32,005 nt of DNA. Source: a virus. The notes beneath the pieces are model-generated. The model worked only from the letters and a program-made list of their open reading frames with translations, ran no database searches and had not been told where the DNA came from. The DNA lies in the IMG/VR virus record IMGVR_UViG_3300032088_002672, positions 1 through 32,005 of that record, one strand, 5' to 3'. A program made the position numbers and the translations under genes. Positions 4,264 to 32,005 of the stretch are shown one piece after another (the first letter of the stretch is position 1; every line of letters starts with the position of its first letter).

Positions 4264-4340
4264 CATGATAACAGCACATCGTTTCTTTGAGAGAATCCGT
4301 GATTCTTTATATACTGTCGAGGAAACCTTTGTCCGCTATC

Positions 4341-4384
4341 TTTATATAGGACTGCACCCTACGATTAAACAGAGGCGAAAAAGA
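4341..4384 (+). promoter_or_regulatory. TATA promoter with short SD-containing leader
   Basis: TTTATATAGG at 4341-4350 is followed by the CCCTACGATTAAAC block that precedes ATG at other promoters here. In this copy the expected ATG position (4371) reads AGA, and the gene starts 14 bases later after GAGGCG. The transcript should therefore carry a short leader with a ribosome site. A second TTTATATA at about 4306-4313 may be an alternative upstream promoter. Confidence 0.65.
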
Positions 4385-8726: not shown

Positions 8727-8756
8727 GTTTTACCCTATGGGCCACCCCTATATAAT
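8727..8756 (-). promoter_or_regulatory. Minus-strand leaderless TATA promoter
   Basis: Read on the minus strand, ATTATATAGGGG lies 30 bases before the ATG at 8726, with CCCATAGGG between. It shares an almost identical core with 8911-8926. Confidence 0.7.
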
Positions 8757-8780
8757 ACTATCGGCAATTCAAACCTTTAT
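8745..8780. repeat. Divergent promoter element, copy 1
   Basis: This block contains CCCCTATATAATACTATCGG followed by CAATTCAAACCTTTATG. It is nearly identical to 8911-8947. It holds a minus-strand TATA box and, facing the other way, a weakened plus-strand box (TTTATGTG). The shared centre TATCGGCAA also occurs at 9178-9186. Confidence 0.75.
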
Positions 8781-8892
8781 GTGAGTGCAGGGGCTTCACG
8801 ACTCCCCTGCGTGATACCGAAGTATCGAATCATGCCGTTTATTGGACTGCCGCATTGAAGAACGAAGGGGGGACATTGCCCCAATTCGCTCT
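8780..8892 (-). ncRNA. Predicted structured RNA, minus strand
   Basis: A minus-strand TATA box at about 8915-8922 places transcription start near 8892, but no ATG stands there. The downstream minus-strand sequence folds into clear hairpins: GGGG/CCCC at 8867-8882, GATAC-UUCG-GUAUC at 8813-8826 (a C(UUCG)G tetraloop on the minus strand only) and GCAGGGG/CCCCUGC at 8787-8810. The UUCG loop supports minus-strand sense. No ORF of useful length is present. The 3' end is a guess, placed after the last hairpin and before the next promoter. Function is unknown; I matched it to no RNA family. Confidence 0.5.
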
Positions 8893-8922
8893 GATTAGTC
8901 CTATGGGTCTCCCCTATATAAT
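8893..8922 (-). promoter_or_regulatory. Minus-strand TATA promoter without ATG
   Basis: Minus-strand ATTATATAGGGGAGACCCAT matches the promoter of the gene at 8726 closely, but the position of the expected ATG (near 8892) carries AATCAG. It therefore probably drives an untranslated RNA. Confidence 0.6.
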
Positions 8923-8947
8923 ACTATCGGCAACCAAAACCTTTATA
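8911..8947. repeat. Divergent promoter element, copy 2
   Basis: This block contains CCCCTATATAATACTATCGG followed by CAACCAAAACCTTTATATG. It duplicates 8745-8780 at a distance of 166 bases. Both outward-facing TATA boxes are intact here. The right half (ATCGGCAAxCAAAACC plus TTTATATGGG) recurs a third time at 9179-9204. Confidence 0.8.
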
Positions 8948-8971
8948 TGGGTGACACCCCTACGATAGAAT
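8942..8971 (+). promoter_or_regulatory. TATA promoter without ATG, driving a predicted RNA
   Basis: TTTATATGGGTGACACCCCT at 8942-8961 nearly matches the leaderless promoter at 9195-9214. At the expected start (about 8972) there is ACAAGG, not ATG, and a strongly folding sequence follows. Confidence 0.65.
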
Positions 8972-9165
8972 ACAAGGCCGTGTGGGTGGAAGGCCCACCA
9001 ACGCTAACCATAGCGTCGAATGCGGGGGCAACCCCGTATATACGGTGAGTAAAGTGCAACGCAACGGAATAGGCAAATAGCCAAACCGCAGAGGAGAGCA
9101 CCGCACCTTACTCAATCCGAGAGGGTCGCACCCGACTAAAACATAGGCACTGCGGCCCTCTCAAT
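8972..9165 (+). ncRNA. Predicted structured RNA of about 195 bases, plus strand
   Basis: The start is inferred from TATA spacing. Helices seen: GGTGG/CCACC (8985-8999); ACGCTA-ACCA-TAGCGT (9001-9016); an 8-bp stem with one G-U pair closing a GCAA (GNRA) tetraloop (9020-9039, with CGGGG/CCCCG at 9023-9036); a long-range 12-bp pairing of 9046-9057 with 9103-9114 with one A-C mismatch, enclosing small hairpins; and a 12-bp stem of 9119-9130 with 9151-9162 (GAGAGGGTCGC/GCGGCCCTCTC, one G-U). No useful ORF spans it. The number of paired elements and the GNRA loop suggest a functional RNA. I could not assign it to tRNA, RNase P, SRP or other known classes. The next promoter begins just after its end. 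Confidence 0.6.
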
Positions 9166-9194
9166 CTCCTTTGATATTATCGGCAATCAAAACC

Positions 9195-9224
9195 TTTATA
9201 TGGGTGATACCCCTACGATTAAAC
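9195..9224 (+). promoter_or_regulatory. Leaderless TATA promoter
   Basis: TTTATATGGGTGATACCCCT then ACGATTAAAC lead directly to ATG 9225. The upstream flank TTATCGGCAATCAAAACC repeats the element at 8923-8940, so the zinc-ribbon gene and the predicted RNA probably share upstream control. Confidence 0.8.
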
Positions 9225-9443
9225 ATGACGGAACACAGATTCATGATAGCCTGCGCCCGATGCGGTTGGAACTTCACAGACCAATACATCAAGAATAACA
9301 CAGATGGAAACATCAGACCGATGTTCGGAGACCAATGTTCATGCGGTGGTATGGTTGAGCGTTATGACTTTGATGAACCAACGCCCGAACCCAAAGGATT
9401 CTTCGCAAGAATGATTGGGGCTTTTCGCAAAAACAACGCATGA
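9225..9443 (+). CDS. Zinc-ribbon protein, 72 residues
   Basis: ATG 9225 is chosen over the longer open frame because it sits 30 bases after the TATA box. Cys10-x2-Cys13 and Cys38-x-Cys40 form a likely zinc-ribbon knuckle pair in an N-terminal domain (CARCGWNF ... QCSCGG). The C-terminal part is basic and aromatic (KGFFARMIGAFRKNN), possibly an amphipathic or nucleic-acid-binding tail. The exact function is not recognisable. Its control region is shared with the two predicted RNAs, which makes a regulatory role possible but unproven. Confidence 0.75.
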   Translation: MTEHRFMIACARCGWNFTDQYIKNNTDGNIRPMFGDQCSCGGMVERYDFDEPTPEPKGFFARMIGAFRKNNA

Positions 9444-9508
9444 AGGTTTGGAACACCGATAGGTTTTCGAGTCCTTCACCTTCGATTTGTCCGAATCGTC
9501 CGAATCTT

Positions 9509-9529
9509 TAACCCCCCTACGGGGGGTTA
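9509..9529 (+). terminator. Strong hairpin, possible terminator
   Basis: TAACCCCCC-TAC-GGGGGGTTA forms a 9-bp stem with a 3-base loop. A second hairpin (GACCCT-GACTT-AGGGTC, 9542-9558) follows. It lies 65 bases after the zinc-ribbon gene. No long T-run follows, so it may equally block readthrough or serve as a regulatory or replication structure. Confidence 0.45.
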
Positions 9530-9559
9530 TGGGTTTCGATTGACCCTGACTTAGGGTCT

Positions 9560-9663
9560 TACAGACATATATGTTAGTTATTGTGTGTGTGTATAATGTA
9601 GGGAAGGTAAAGTATCGAATTAAACGAGATGGTTAAGAAGGTGGGTGCATCGTGGTGAGAGGC
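9560..9663 (+). promoter_or_regulatory. Upstream region of the AAA+ ATPase gene
   Basis: A short alternating stretch (GTGTGTGTGTATAATG, about 9583-9598) is followed by GTTAAGAAGGTGGGTG at 9632-9647, which resembles the GTTAAGTAGGTGGG promoter boxes at 16029 and 26965. ATG 9664 lies 32 bases after that box, and GAGAGG stands 4 bases before it. GTG codons at 9652 and 9655 are alternative starts. Confidence 0.45.
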
Positions 9664-11670
9664 ATGAACCCCGACTTCCAAGTACACCAATCGACAGAAT
9701 CCTCCTCGGATTTTCTGTTTCAAATAAATGAAATGGCTGTCCGTCTCACCTTTTTGTCTTCGACTAAGGGACGCATGGAGTTCTCGGCTGACATTGGTGG
9801 AGAGCCAATGGGCAAGGTCAATGTTCTCTCACAGCACAGCATAGCCCGCATGGCTAAGGCAGTCTGTGACGATAAGGACGAGATTGAAGAGTTCAAGCAA
9901 ACCTTCCTGAAAGCAGGTGTCATCCTCCGTGAAGGGACTTATGTCGTAGCGACCATCGAGGATAAGAAAGACGCCGAGATTGATGCCCTGTTGGGTGAAA
10001 CATCAACCTACGGAGAGATTGAAGAAAAGTCAATCAAGGAGTTCTTGGGACAGCGTCACTTGGTCGATAAAATTAACAGGATTCTCCACGAGAGCCGTGA
10101 GACTCCGTTCGTCGGCGACGATGCAAACCTACTCCTCACATTCCTCGTATTCCTGTCCTGTAAGACCGACAATCCGCTCAACCTTGAGATGATTGGGCAG
10201 TCAGCGAGCGGCAAGACATACATGACGCTAACGGCCCGCAACGGCTTCCCTAAGAGCATGATTATGGTGCTTGCAGGTGCTTCAAAAGAGGCTCTCAAGT
10301 ACGACTATGACGAGGTCGATGAGGACGGCAATTTCATCGTGAATGTCGATGGCCGTTGCATCGTCGTCTTGGAGAAGGACGAATCCTATGCGTTCATCAA
10401 GAAAATGAAACCGATTATGTCGGGGGACGATGACGAACTTGTTTGGAAAACGCCCATCAAGAACGAGTTATCGGGCGAGATAGAGACACGAGACTTCATC
10501 ATCAGGGGACGACCATCATTCATCACTTTGACGACTCGCAATCCAAACGAGCAAGAGCAAATCACCCGTCAATTGATTATGACACCCGACACCACAGTCG
10601 AGAAGGTCAATTCTGTGGTCAAGAACACCTTGCTCGCTAAGGCTCGACCCGAACAATTCACAGTCCACCCTGACCTGAAAATGCTCCAAGCCGCCATGCT
10701 GTCTTTGAAGCGATACCGTGTCCGCAACATATTCGCTCCACTCATGGTTGATTTTTTCCCTGCTCGCAACGCTCAACATCAGCGTGACATTGGCAAGGTG
10801 CTGTCGATTATCGACGCCGTGACGCTCTTGCATCAGAACCAACGAGTCGTTCAAAAAGACGCTCATGGCAATGAGTTCCTGCTATCCTCAATCGAGGACA
10901 ATGTCATCGGCCTACTTCTCTGTGACTTGGTCTTGAGAGCGAGCCTGTCGGGTGTCCCTGACGACTCATGGACGGTGTACCAACAGATGAACGCCATGTC
11001 AGAGGCCAAGCGTCCACTAACGGAGGACAACATTCTACAATGGCTCGGACTGCACGCATTCACCATCAGCAAGAACGCACTCAAGGAGAAGCACTTGCCA
11101 ACCCTTGAAGACGCAGGTCTGATTGAGGTCGGTCGTCGTGGTGGCGGTCGTGGTGGCGGCAAGAAGTCCTACAAATTGGTCAAGTCCCGTGAGGGGTTGA
11201 TGGACGACTACGCTCTCGCACCACTGTTTATCGAAGCGGCTTCCAACAATCTACCATCTCTCGCAGTCGAGTTCGACGATGTGATTTCAAAAGCCGAAGC
11301 CGCTTTGTCCGCATTCCCCCTCAAGGGTGAAGACAGCAACCTACTACGCTCGATAGGATGCAAGACGAAGGAACAGTCGAATGTTTGGCGTTCGCTATTT
11401 TTGCCATCGTACCTCCGACCTTCGGGCAAAGGAACTCTCCTTTGGGACATCGTCGGCAAGGATTCTAAGCACCGCAAGTCTCTGTTCAAGGGTGACGCTT
11501 GGTTCTCGTCCAAGCACTCGGCGACAGACGCATTGGCTGAACGCCGTGAAGTCAAAGAAGCAATCAAGACAGCCTCGCAGTCAGGCGAATTGGGCGACGA
11601 CGACCTATGGGAAGCCATGATGGAGGCACAGTTAAACCGCATCTCAGACGACCCTGAAAGTGGGGTTTGA
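9664..11670 (+). CDS. AAA+ helicase-like ATPase (MCM- or primase-helicase-like)
   Basis: Protein of 668 residues from ATG 9664; two in-frame GTGs lie 9 and 12 bases upstream. Walker A is GQSASGKT (178-185), Walker B CIVVLEKDE (232-240), and FITLTTRN (286-293) looks like sensor 1 with a terminal Asn. A helical N-terminal domain precedes the ATPase. Residues about 450-500 look like a winged helix (ILQWLGLHAFTISKNAL ... LEDAGLIEVG), then a basic Gly-rich stretch GRRGGGRGGGKKSY. This arrangement is seen in replicative AAA+ helicases of archaeal plasmids and viruses. The next gene is the SSB, which supports a replicative role. The exact family (MCM or another superfamily 3/6 helicase) cannot be settled by eye. 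Confidence 0.65.
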   Translation: MNPDFQVHQSTESSSDFLFQINEMAVRLTFLSSTKGRMEFSADIGGEPMGKVNVLSQHSIARMAKAVCDDKDEIEEFKQTFLKAGVILREGTYVVATIEDKKDAEIDALLGETSTYGEIEEKSIKEFLGQRHLVDKINRILHESRETPFVGDDANLLLTFLVFLSCKTDNPLNLEMIGQSASGKTYMTLTARNGFPKSMIMVLAGASKEALKYDYDEVDEDGNFIVNVDGRCIVVLEKDESYAFIKKMKPIMSGDDDELVWKTPIKNELSGEIETRDFIIRGRPSFITLTTRNPNEQEQITRQLIMTPDTTVEKVNSVVKNTLLAKARPEQFTVHPDLKMLQAAMLSLKRYRVRNIFAPLMVDFFPARNAQHQRDIGKVLSIIDAVTLLHQNQRVVQKDAHGNEFLLSSIEDNVIGLLLCDLVLRASLSGVPDDSWTVYQQMNAMSEAKRPLTEDNILQWLGLHAFTISKNALKEKHLPTLEDAGLIEVGRRGGGRGGGKKSYKLVKSREGLMDDYALAPLFIEAASNNLPSLAVEFDDVISKAEAALSAFPLKGEDSNLLRSIGCKTKEQSNVWRSLFLPSYLRPSGKGTLLWDIVGKDSKHRKSLFKGDAWFSSKHSATDALAERREVKEAIKTASQSGELGDDDLWEAMMEAQLNRISDDPESGV

Positions 11671-13032: not shown

Positions 13033-13062
13033 CTTATATAGGTGTGACCCATAGGATAAAAC
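13033..13062 (+). promoter_or_regulatory. Leaderless TATA promoter
   Basis: CTTATATAGGTGTGACCCAT then AGGATAAAAC leads straight to ATG 13063, 30 bases after the start of the box. Confidence 0.8.
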
Positions 13063-13248
13063 ATGCCTAAAGACATACACAAATGGGTCGAAGAGACCCG
13101 ACGACGACAACACATGACTCAACGAATCGACGCATTAGAGGCCGAGATTGAAGAACTTAACACTCAGATTGCTGAGAAGAACAAAGCCGTCGCCATGCTC
13201 ATAAGAGCACGGACTCTCAGCATTGATAAAGCCCGACGCTCTGAATGA
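13063..13248 (+). CDS. Small coiled-coil protein, 61 residues
   Basis: The start coincides with the predicted transcription start. The chain is almost entirely charged heptad-like helix (IDALEAEIEELNTQIAEKNK at residues about 23-42), so a short dimeric or trimeric coiled coil is likely. A basic N-terminus (VEETRRRQHM) precedes it. I recognise no family. It is separated by its own promoter from the Sak4-like gene downstream. Confidence 0.65.
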   Translation: MPKDIHKWVEETRRRQHMTQRIDALEAEIEELNTQIAEKNKAVAMLIRARTLSIDKARRSE

Positions 13249-15748: not shown

Positions 15749-15778
15749 TTTATATAGGTGATAGCCCTACGATTAAAC
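15749..15778 (+). promoter_or_regulatory. Leaderless TATA promoter
   Basis: TTTATATAGGTGATAGCCCT then ACGATTAAAC leads directly to ATG 15779, the clearest example of the consensus in this window. Confidence 0.85.
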
Positions 15779-17122: not shown

Positions 17123-17536
17123 ATGACCGTCCACCAATTCTCAGGTGTAACTGCTAAAATCACCGTCTCTTCGAGCCTCGTAGGCTTCGTATCAGGCGAT
17201 TTCACTGTCGCAGTAGCAACAGGCCGATACACTGAACTGAACAGCAAAACAAGCGCATCTCTGACTCGTGGTCTCCGAACCGTTTCAGGCACTCTCAAGA
17301 AGGCTTGGGGCATTGGAGACAACACACTCTACACCTACTTCAACACCGACCAAGTGTTCGACATCACCTTCGATAACGACGGTGACGGAGCAGGCGGGGC
17401 AACAGGAGCAAACACCTACACACTGACGGGTTGCATGTTCACTGACATGGCCGTAGAAGGCATTGAAGCAGGTGCTGAGGGAGCGTTGATGATTAACGCA
17501 TCCTTTGAAGGCTTAGACTGGTCGAGAGACGCTTGA
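17123..17536 (+). CDS. Tail tube protein candidate, 137 residues
   Basis: The chain is beta-rich: SGDFTVAVATGRYTEL, then TRGLRTVSGTLKKAWG, a Gly/Asn loop, and ANTYTLTGCMFTDMAVEGI ... LMINASFEGLDWSR. The short beta-sandwich size and the final strand followed by a charged end resemble phage tail tube proteins. It is the first gene of the tail operon, upstream of the assembly chaperone and tape measure, exactly where tube genes stand in siphovirus and myovirus genomes. The family call is by order and pattern. Confidence 0.6.
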   Translation: MTVHQFSGVTAKITVSSSLVGFVSGDFTVAVATGRYTELNSKTSASLTRGLRTVSGTLKKAWGIGDNTLYTYFNTDQVFDITFDNDGDGAGGATGANTYTLTGCMFTDMAVEGIEAGAEGALMINASFEGLDWSRDA

Positions 17537-31207: not shown

Positions 31208-31500
31208 TTTCATTTACAGAATCAGACGGCGACGGAATGAACATAACCACTCTCTATGAGAAGGACAAATGGGGCGACTTCAACGCTGTATGCGAACTGG
31301 TCGAAGTCGATGCCGAGTGGCACATTGACACCAAAAGCGAACTGTTCATCGTTGAGAATCCACAGGGAGATAAGCACGAATATCTCAATCAGATGTTCGG
31401 CCTCGGTGATTCGTCTATTGACCCCGATAACACCATCATGTCTTTCAGGTCAGGGTTTCTCAATTTTGATGTGAAGGAAGTGATTCGTGATGACGATTAG
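31204..31500 (+). CDS. Hypothetical 98-residue acidic protein
   Basis: ATG 31204 overlaps the preceding TGA by ATGA. Acidic, mixed alpha/beta (DGMNITTLYEKDKWGDFNAV, then CELVEVDAEW, EPQ-poor end [14 protein letters not shown]). I recognise no family. The ATG of the collagen-like gene (31490) lies inside its last codons. Confidence 0.55.
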   Translation: MISFTESDGDGMNITTLYEKDKWGDFNAVCELVEVDAEWHIDTKSELFIVENPQGDKHEYLNQMFGLGDSSIDPDNTIMSFRSGFLNFDVKEVIRDDD

Positions 31501-32005
31501 ATATTCGGCACAGGAGTTACGAAGCAAATTGAAAGCGGCGGGTATCGACACCCCTAACTCACTCACCTACAACCAATTGGTCTATTTAGCCACGAGAGAG
31601 GGCGTTGTAGCCACTCAAACGACCACGACGGGGGGAACAGGCACTGTTGGCCCAAGAGGGCCACAGGGCGTGCGTGGAGTGCAAGGAACGCAAGGAACGC
31701 AAGGTGCTACTGGCCCTGCGGGTGCTCAAGGTGCTCAGGGTGCTCAAGGTGCTACTGGCCCACAGGGAGCGGCAGGAGCGGCAGGAGCGGACGGAAACGA
31801 TGGTGCTCAGGGTGCTCAAGGCCCACAGGGAATAGCAGGAGCGGACGGTGCTGATGGCGTAGATGGCTCTCAAGGCCCACAGGGAATACAAGGCCCTGCG
31901 GGTGCTAATGGTAACGACGGTGCTGACGGTGCTGTTGGGCCGCAAGGCCCTGCGGGTGCTGATGGGAATGACGGGGCTGTTGGCCCTATTGGCCCACAAG
32001 GCCCT
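31490..32005 (+). CDS. Collagen-like G-x-y repeat protein, runs off window
   Basis: Frame open from ATG 31490 to the window end (172 codons). After about 45 helical residues ([20 protein letters not shown] ... [10 protein letters not shown]) comes [16 protein letters not shown], then uninterrupted collagen-type G-x-y triplets with units such as GPQ, GAQ, GPA, GAD and GND. Such triple-helical shafts are common in tail fibres and virion surface proteins of phages. The DNA is correspondingly repetitive (GGTGCTCAAGGTGCTCAGGG-like stretches). Its start overlaps the preceding gene in another register. Likely a trimeric surface fibre; the globular end lies outside the window. Confidence 0.8.

Follow-up and report, generated by a model that had tools for sequence, protein, structure and literature searches.

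The window analysed here, a whole virus record of 32 kb (32,005 nucleotides), almost certainly contains a genuine gene for a structured RNA, which we will refer to as RNA A. Its predicted transcript (~8971-9170, plus strand) has its own promoter and would consist of a four-way junction followed by a long branched stem and, as its 3' terminal hairpin, P6. A covarying fold, a promoter of its own, the lack of a conserved ORF and a viral genome as location come together in RNA A, as in virus-encoded structured ncRNAs. Regarding its function, we lean tentatively, with somewhat less than even confidence, toward an independent and accessory ncRNA acting in trans, with a shared 3' handle that is probably meant for a protein.

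The gene products of the window include a YqbQ-like tail protein, a DinG-type helicase, a PD-(D/E)XK nuclease and an ERCC4/HhH (XPF-type) nuclease; these genes, together with the TATA promoters and leaderless genes, point to a tailed virus of an archaeon, and a marine origin and a Poseidoniales host are a likely guess. The protein encoded at 9652-11670 is called “replication protein” as a provisional label, since it shows a Walker-type motif only as seen by eye and has no match in Pfam or PDB. Its relatives were collected among viral contigs (43 first, later 72), which are incomplete. Phage records contained no DNA similar to the window and no relative of the replication protein or the primase, and relatives of the replication protein were absent among the pattern matches in bacterial and archaeal genomes. 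Elsewhere in the window, a collagen-like Gly-X-Y repeat protein (31487-32005, plus strand) runs off the end, and the lowest folding z-score (-6.2) lies at 17301-17500 on the minus strand, opposite a coding frame.

Predicted transcription unit and fold of RNA A

The features of the region are the following:

8785-8892, minus: probable second ncRNA, ~108 nt, divergent from RNA A (ATG-less TATA box at 8921; z -2.4)
8914-8921, minus: TATA box of the minus-strand RNA promoter (strict TATA scan, without ATG)
8942-8949, plus: TATA box of the RNA A promoter, TTTATATG
8971-9170, plus: RNA A as a predicted transcript (the TATA spacing suggests the start, P6 and a weak T-rich CTCCTTT the end)
8977-9046, plus: four-way junction, P1-P4 (fold and covariation)
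8977-8983/9040-9046, plus: P1, which with P2 closes the four-way junction
8985-8989/8995-8999, plus: P2 (fold)
9001-9006/9011-9016, plus: P3, perfect 6-bp hairpin (fold)
9020-9027/9032-9039, plus: P4, with a GCAA loop (fold)
9047-9113, plus: P5 domain, stem 9047-9057/9103-9113 with an A-rich branched interior
9119-9162, plus: P6, 3' terminal hairpin, stem 9119-9130/9151-9162, loop 9131-9150
9195-9202, plus: TATA box of the next gene, a leaderless ORF with its ATG at 9225 (strict TATA scan)

The segment from 8972 to 9165/9170 folds with a minimum free energy of -80.1 kcal/mol, compared with -57.3 +/- 4.5 for 200 dinucleotide shuffles (z -5.1), the second lowest value among 638 windows on both strands of the whole record. 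A first-pass annotation had proposed here a structured ncRNA under a viral TATA promoter, with four helices that all reappear in the present fold: its 6-bp perfect hairpin is P3, its stem with a GCAA tetraloop is P4, its 12-bp long-range pairing with one mismatch is P5 (9046/9047-9057 with 9103-9113/9114), and its 12-bp stem with one G-U pair is P6. The interior of P5 contains two further helices (9065-9067/9086-9088 and 9072-9074/9080-9082). The absence of a useful ORF, also claimed then, was borne out: the ORFs overlapping RNA A are all small and its homologues differ by 1- and 2-nt indels, so a protein-coding reading was discarded.

The standard promoter of the virus is TTATATAGG-GTGACCC-TACGATTAAAC, with the ATG at +29/30, thus giving leaderless genes. 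A strict search of the window gives 12 distinct TATA matches, of which 8 are followed by such an ATG; the other four are those of RNA A (8942, plus) and of the second RNA (8921, minus), a match at 4341 with a short leader, and one at 4306 without the downstream promoter element. As the first-pass annotation had noted, the RNA A box is not followed by a start codon, GAATACAAGG standing in place of ATG at the predicted start (~8971). A promoter matrix trained on the ATG-bearing TATA sites of 24 related sequences yielded ATG-less sites of one kind with ACAGAGGCGA-type leaders followed by an ATG (short-leader genes); the other strong ones are very largely found before the replication gene, leading into structured RNA. 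Since the ORF at 9225 owns the TATA box at 9195-9202, RNA A is a separate unit and not the leader of that ORF. Between TATA box and start, promoters of the window (for example 8942-8970, 13034-13063 and 15749-15778) share a strong element, GGGTGACACCC-like and followed by CCTACG or CATAGG, through which many of the viral genes may have an operator in common.

Downstream of the next ORF and before the replication gene, a conserved block (9444-9651, plus strand) carries a hairpin, TTTAACCCCCCTACGGGGGGTTA, kept in 15 sequences with some paired changes and followed by a repeat of the ACACACA/TGTGTGT type; in the folding scan, the 200-nt segment at 9401 reaches a z of -5.0. This block is possibly an origin or a leader.

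Homologues, covariation and known RNA classes

Related loci and contigs are designated by L numbers. RNA A is present in L004 (L005 being identical in that part) and in L010, where the P5 interior is absent and a short hairpin stands in its place on the retained stem base; full-length RNA A is thus represented by three distinct sequences (window, L004, L010), and a search with a model of the four-way junction found these same three members. Across these three, both partners have changed in 13 of the 55 pairs, a value reached by none of 500 shuffles. Paired cells amount to 96.9%, versus 35-51% in slid controls, a figure biased upward because the structure was drawn from the window and its relatives; the double-sided pair changes are not produced by that procedure. 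The L004 homologue, folded alone, gives a z of -4.5. Furthermore, G-U cells far exceed A-C cells, both in full RNA A (14:1) and in P6 (9:1), which indicates that the plus-strand RNA is what selection acts on. The promoter without start codon, the low-energy fold, the covarying helices and this strand bias sustain the structured ncRNA originally proposed; its pairing does covary among relatives and no conserved ORF crosses it, so the proposal stands.

The first-pass annotation could name no RNA class, and neither can we. At the gathering threshold, Rfam 15 (4227 families) gave no match for the window or 13 related loci, nor did Rfam match L110, L111 or parts of L095 and L105; relaxing the cut-off to an E of 5 brought up no more than two matches, both weak and below gathering, on segments other than RNA A. 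ARAGORN found 0 tRNA or tmRNA genes in the window, the four-way junction resembling tRNA in topology only. By reading of the sequence 8971-9170, neither RUGAUGA nor CUGA of C/D box sRNAs is present, and there is no ACA box of H/ACA sRNAs, AAUCUCC following P6 in the window. Archaeal C/D and H/ACA guide RNAs are likewise small and built of stem-loops; RNA A differs from them in these missing boxes and in its negative Rfam result.

GOLLD and ROOL also combine an elaborate conserved fold, a transcription unit of their own and an unsettled function, and occur partly in viral genomes. RNA A, at ~200 nt, is shorter than these RNAs of several hundred nt, and unlike them it has an archaeal-type TATA promoter and an end module common to unlike RNAs. 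Both are structured ncRNAs of phages and bacteria whose role is unknown or known in part, and they rank among the closest known systems (PMC12286853). No Rfam match to GOLLD, ROOL or OLE was obtained. In a library search, archaeal viruses and structured ncRNA led to general papers only, and noncoding RNA of Poseidoniales viruses to none; hardly any structured ncRNA of an archaeal virus seems to have been described.

P6 and the turnover of RNA cassettes

In related viruses, at least five RNAs that are otherwise unlike end in P6, which occurs on both strands and at three sites in the genome and marks a modular RNA family without Rfam match. It closes RNA A (window, L004, L010), RNA B (L009) and RNA D (L016, L020), as well as a hairpin RNA in L011, a second RNA of the L016 contig (L110) and a longer RNA in L112. 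In 10 copies (8 in an earlier set; the counts include related lineages), 11 of the 12 stem pairs are changed on both sides, with a score of 0.63 versus 0.25 for shuffled sequences. The conserved loop is CCCGACURAAACAUAGGC, in which CCGA and UAGG are invariant; its middle is dispensable in the hotspot copy of L016, where the top of the loop is missing. Of the 9 viral stretches matched by the loop pattern, 8 belong to this virus group and have the stem; the ninth, L048, was dismissed as a chance match, and so were the pattern matches in L056-L058 and L092-L094. A P6 model built on 8 copies (R2) retrieved copies not used to build it: L110, which has a tail gene on one side and the DinG gene on the other (E 7.8e-8), and those in L111/L112 (E 3.6e-4 and 1.1e-3), E-values which are rough since the models were short-calibrated. 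In L111/L112 the replication proteins are ~61% identical and P6 adjoins what looks like an XPF-type nuclease gene. A wider model (R3), run on 50 records, added no further lineages.

The loop stays constant although the stem below it varies freely, and P6 is invariably the 3' terminus of RNAs that differ otherwise; both points favour a recognition handle. The main rival to it is 3'-end protection without a specific partner: P6 could be an element of 3'-end formation or stability only, terminator-like or exonuclease-blocking, with the body of RNA A acting alone. This alternative, which we regard as rather unlikely though worth serious attention, agrees with the free variation of the stem and with the strictly 3'-terminal position of P6, often followed by a short T-run (ACTTTTT in L016, ACCTTTT in L020, ACCTTT in L110). 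Nonetheless, a terminator does not need a loop of ~18 nt kept constant across viruses as distant as those of L111/L112, the T-runs are weak or absent after P6 in the window, L009 and L010, and many RNAs of the group, including those of L003, L013 and L017, have no P6.

The exposed conserved loop of ~20 nt, in a virus with leaderless mRNAs, might also suggest an antisense regulator pairing with viral or host mRNAs. We consider this improbable, as the longest complementarity of RNA A to the plus strand of the window is 11 nt against a shuffled mean of 11.2, and the three loop matches in bacterial and archaeal genome contigs (two in the cyanobacterium Moorena, one in a Euryarchaeota MAG) all lack the stem, do not exceed chance and were set aside. 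The last of them (L091, 5850-5868) is a 19-nt exact match lying antisense inside a peptidase-like gene, and is probably fortuitous because the identical stretch is found in Moorena.

The gap between the tail gene and the replication gene is a hotspot with turnover of RNA cassettes. A 54-bp promoter repeat occurs in three copies around RNA A (8734-8787, 8900-8953 and 9153-9206), and in L053, where the left flank is nearly identical, one fused promoter leads directly into P6 at the contig end, without RNA A, as expected from recombination (deletion) between promoter repeats. The closest relative by replication protein (L001, 90% identical) lacks RNA A, and neither L001 nor L015 shows any RNA of this kind at that site.

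Other RNAs of the group share 5' elements. For the second ncRNA, the minus strand fits better than a plus-strand RNA at 8788-8910, which was abandoned (z -0.8); its 5' element ACTAATCAGAGC is conserved in L004 and L006, with a variant in L012. AUUGUUGGGGCAACAACCCCGACCGAAGC begins minus-strand RNAs of differing bodies in L004, L006, L010 (with a ~190-nt insert) and L011 (whose body is unlike the others), and is found again at other places in the L003 and L077 contigs. Another 5' hairpin, followed by (C)CGAA(A)G, starts RNA D and the RNAs of L019 and L110 and, more loosely, that of L112. That all these RNAs descend from one ancestor is no more than a suggestion.

Two further cases were recorded. 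A 260-nt RNA candidate in L004 (1545-1805, minus; z -4.8), divergent from RNA A, has a 5' two-hairpin head that recurs with other bodies in L006, L010, L011 and L095, its first hairpin also in L105. RNA B has P6 in L009 (4638-4723, minus) and lacks it in L013 (4647-4734, plus); the core is nearly identical in both, with closing stems GGACCCC/GGGGTCC versus GACAGACCC/GGGTCTGTC.

This distribution also bears on whether the elements act as DNA. Single-stranded hairpins could serve as attC-like recombination sites or replication structures without RNA function, and the shuffling of cassettes, P6 in both orientations and the conservation of its loop rather than its stem would suit them. We judge this highly improbable: the G-U excess marks one strand as RNA, the RNA bodies lie under correctly oriented ATG-less promoters of the virus's standard type, and the visible junction repeats are promoters, not P6.

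Mode of action and significance

RNA A lies just upstream of the conserved, repeat-bearing region before the replication gene, a position that would suit an action in cis: on the small ORF 9225-9443 or the replication gene, as their leader or attenuator, or within an origin, as RNA primer or inhibitor. This seems highly improbable considering that a leaderless promoter of its own, at 9195, serves the next ORF, that the P6 RNAs of L008, L009 and L011 run on the opposite strand from the replication gene, that L110 and L112 have theirs at different sites in the genome, and that L001 and L015 show no such RNA at the site. Independence of orientation, the variety of genomic sites and the patchy distribution speak for action in trans rather than for a leader or an origin. 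RNA A would be an accessory element, a reading based on distribution in incomplete contigs: it is present in some close relatives and lacking in others, and RNA and promoter seem to be exchanged as one cassette.

The weakest steps of the proposed trans-acting mechanism concern its partners. P6 would be a handle, most likely bound by a viral or host protein that would protect the 3' end and build RNA A into an RNP, and the variable body would be the effector, most likely against a factor of the host or of a rival virus. Adenovirus VA RNA and EBV EBER, short, stable and virus-encoded, offer a working model for such a protein-binding decoy; Rfam shows no match of RNA A to them, and host domain and promoter are different. 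Cassette turnover at the hotspot suggests, by analogy, that the RNA bodies act in conflict with the host or rival viruses. The “morons” of tailed viruses are comparable, being promoter-flanked accessory cassettes with patchy presence between core gene modules; the cargo is here a structured RNA instead of a protein.

With RNA A, uncultured viruses yield a new RNA class that is supported by covariation and contains a module able to be transferred. Being short and defined, P6 could serve as bait in a hunt for the partner protein; natural variants for testing the function of the bodies are provided by the cassettes. More speculatively, and with a doubtful standing, a modular RNA system can be envisaged in which interchangeable bodies with the standard 3' handle P6, often with a 5' hairpin followed by CCGAAG, would be shuffled at hotspots by promoter recombination, one shared protein serving all of them. 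If true, such a system would be the RNA counterpart of exchangeable effector proteins.
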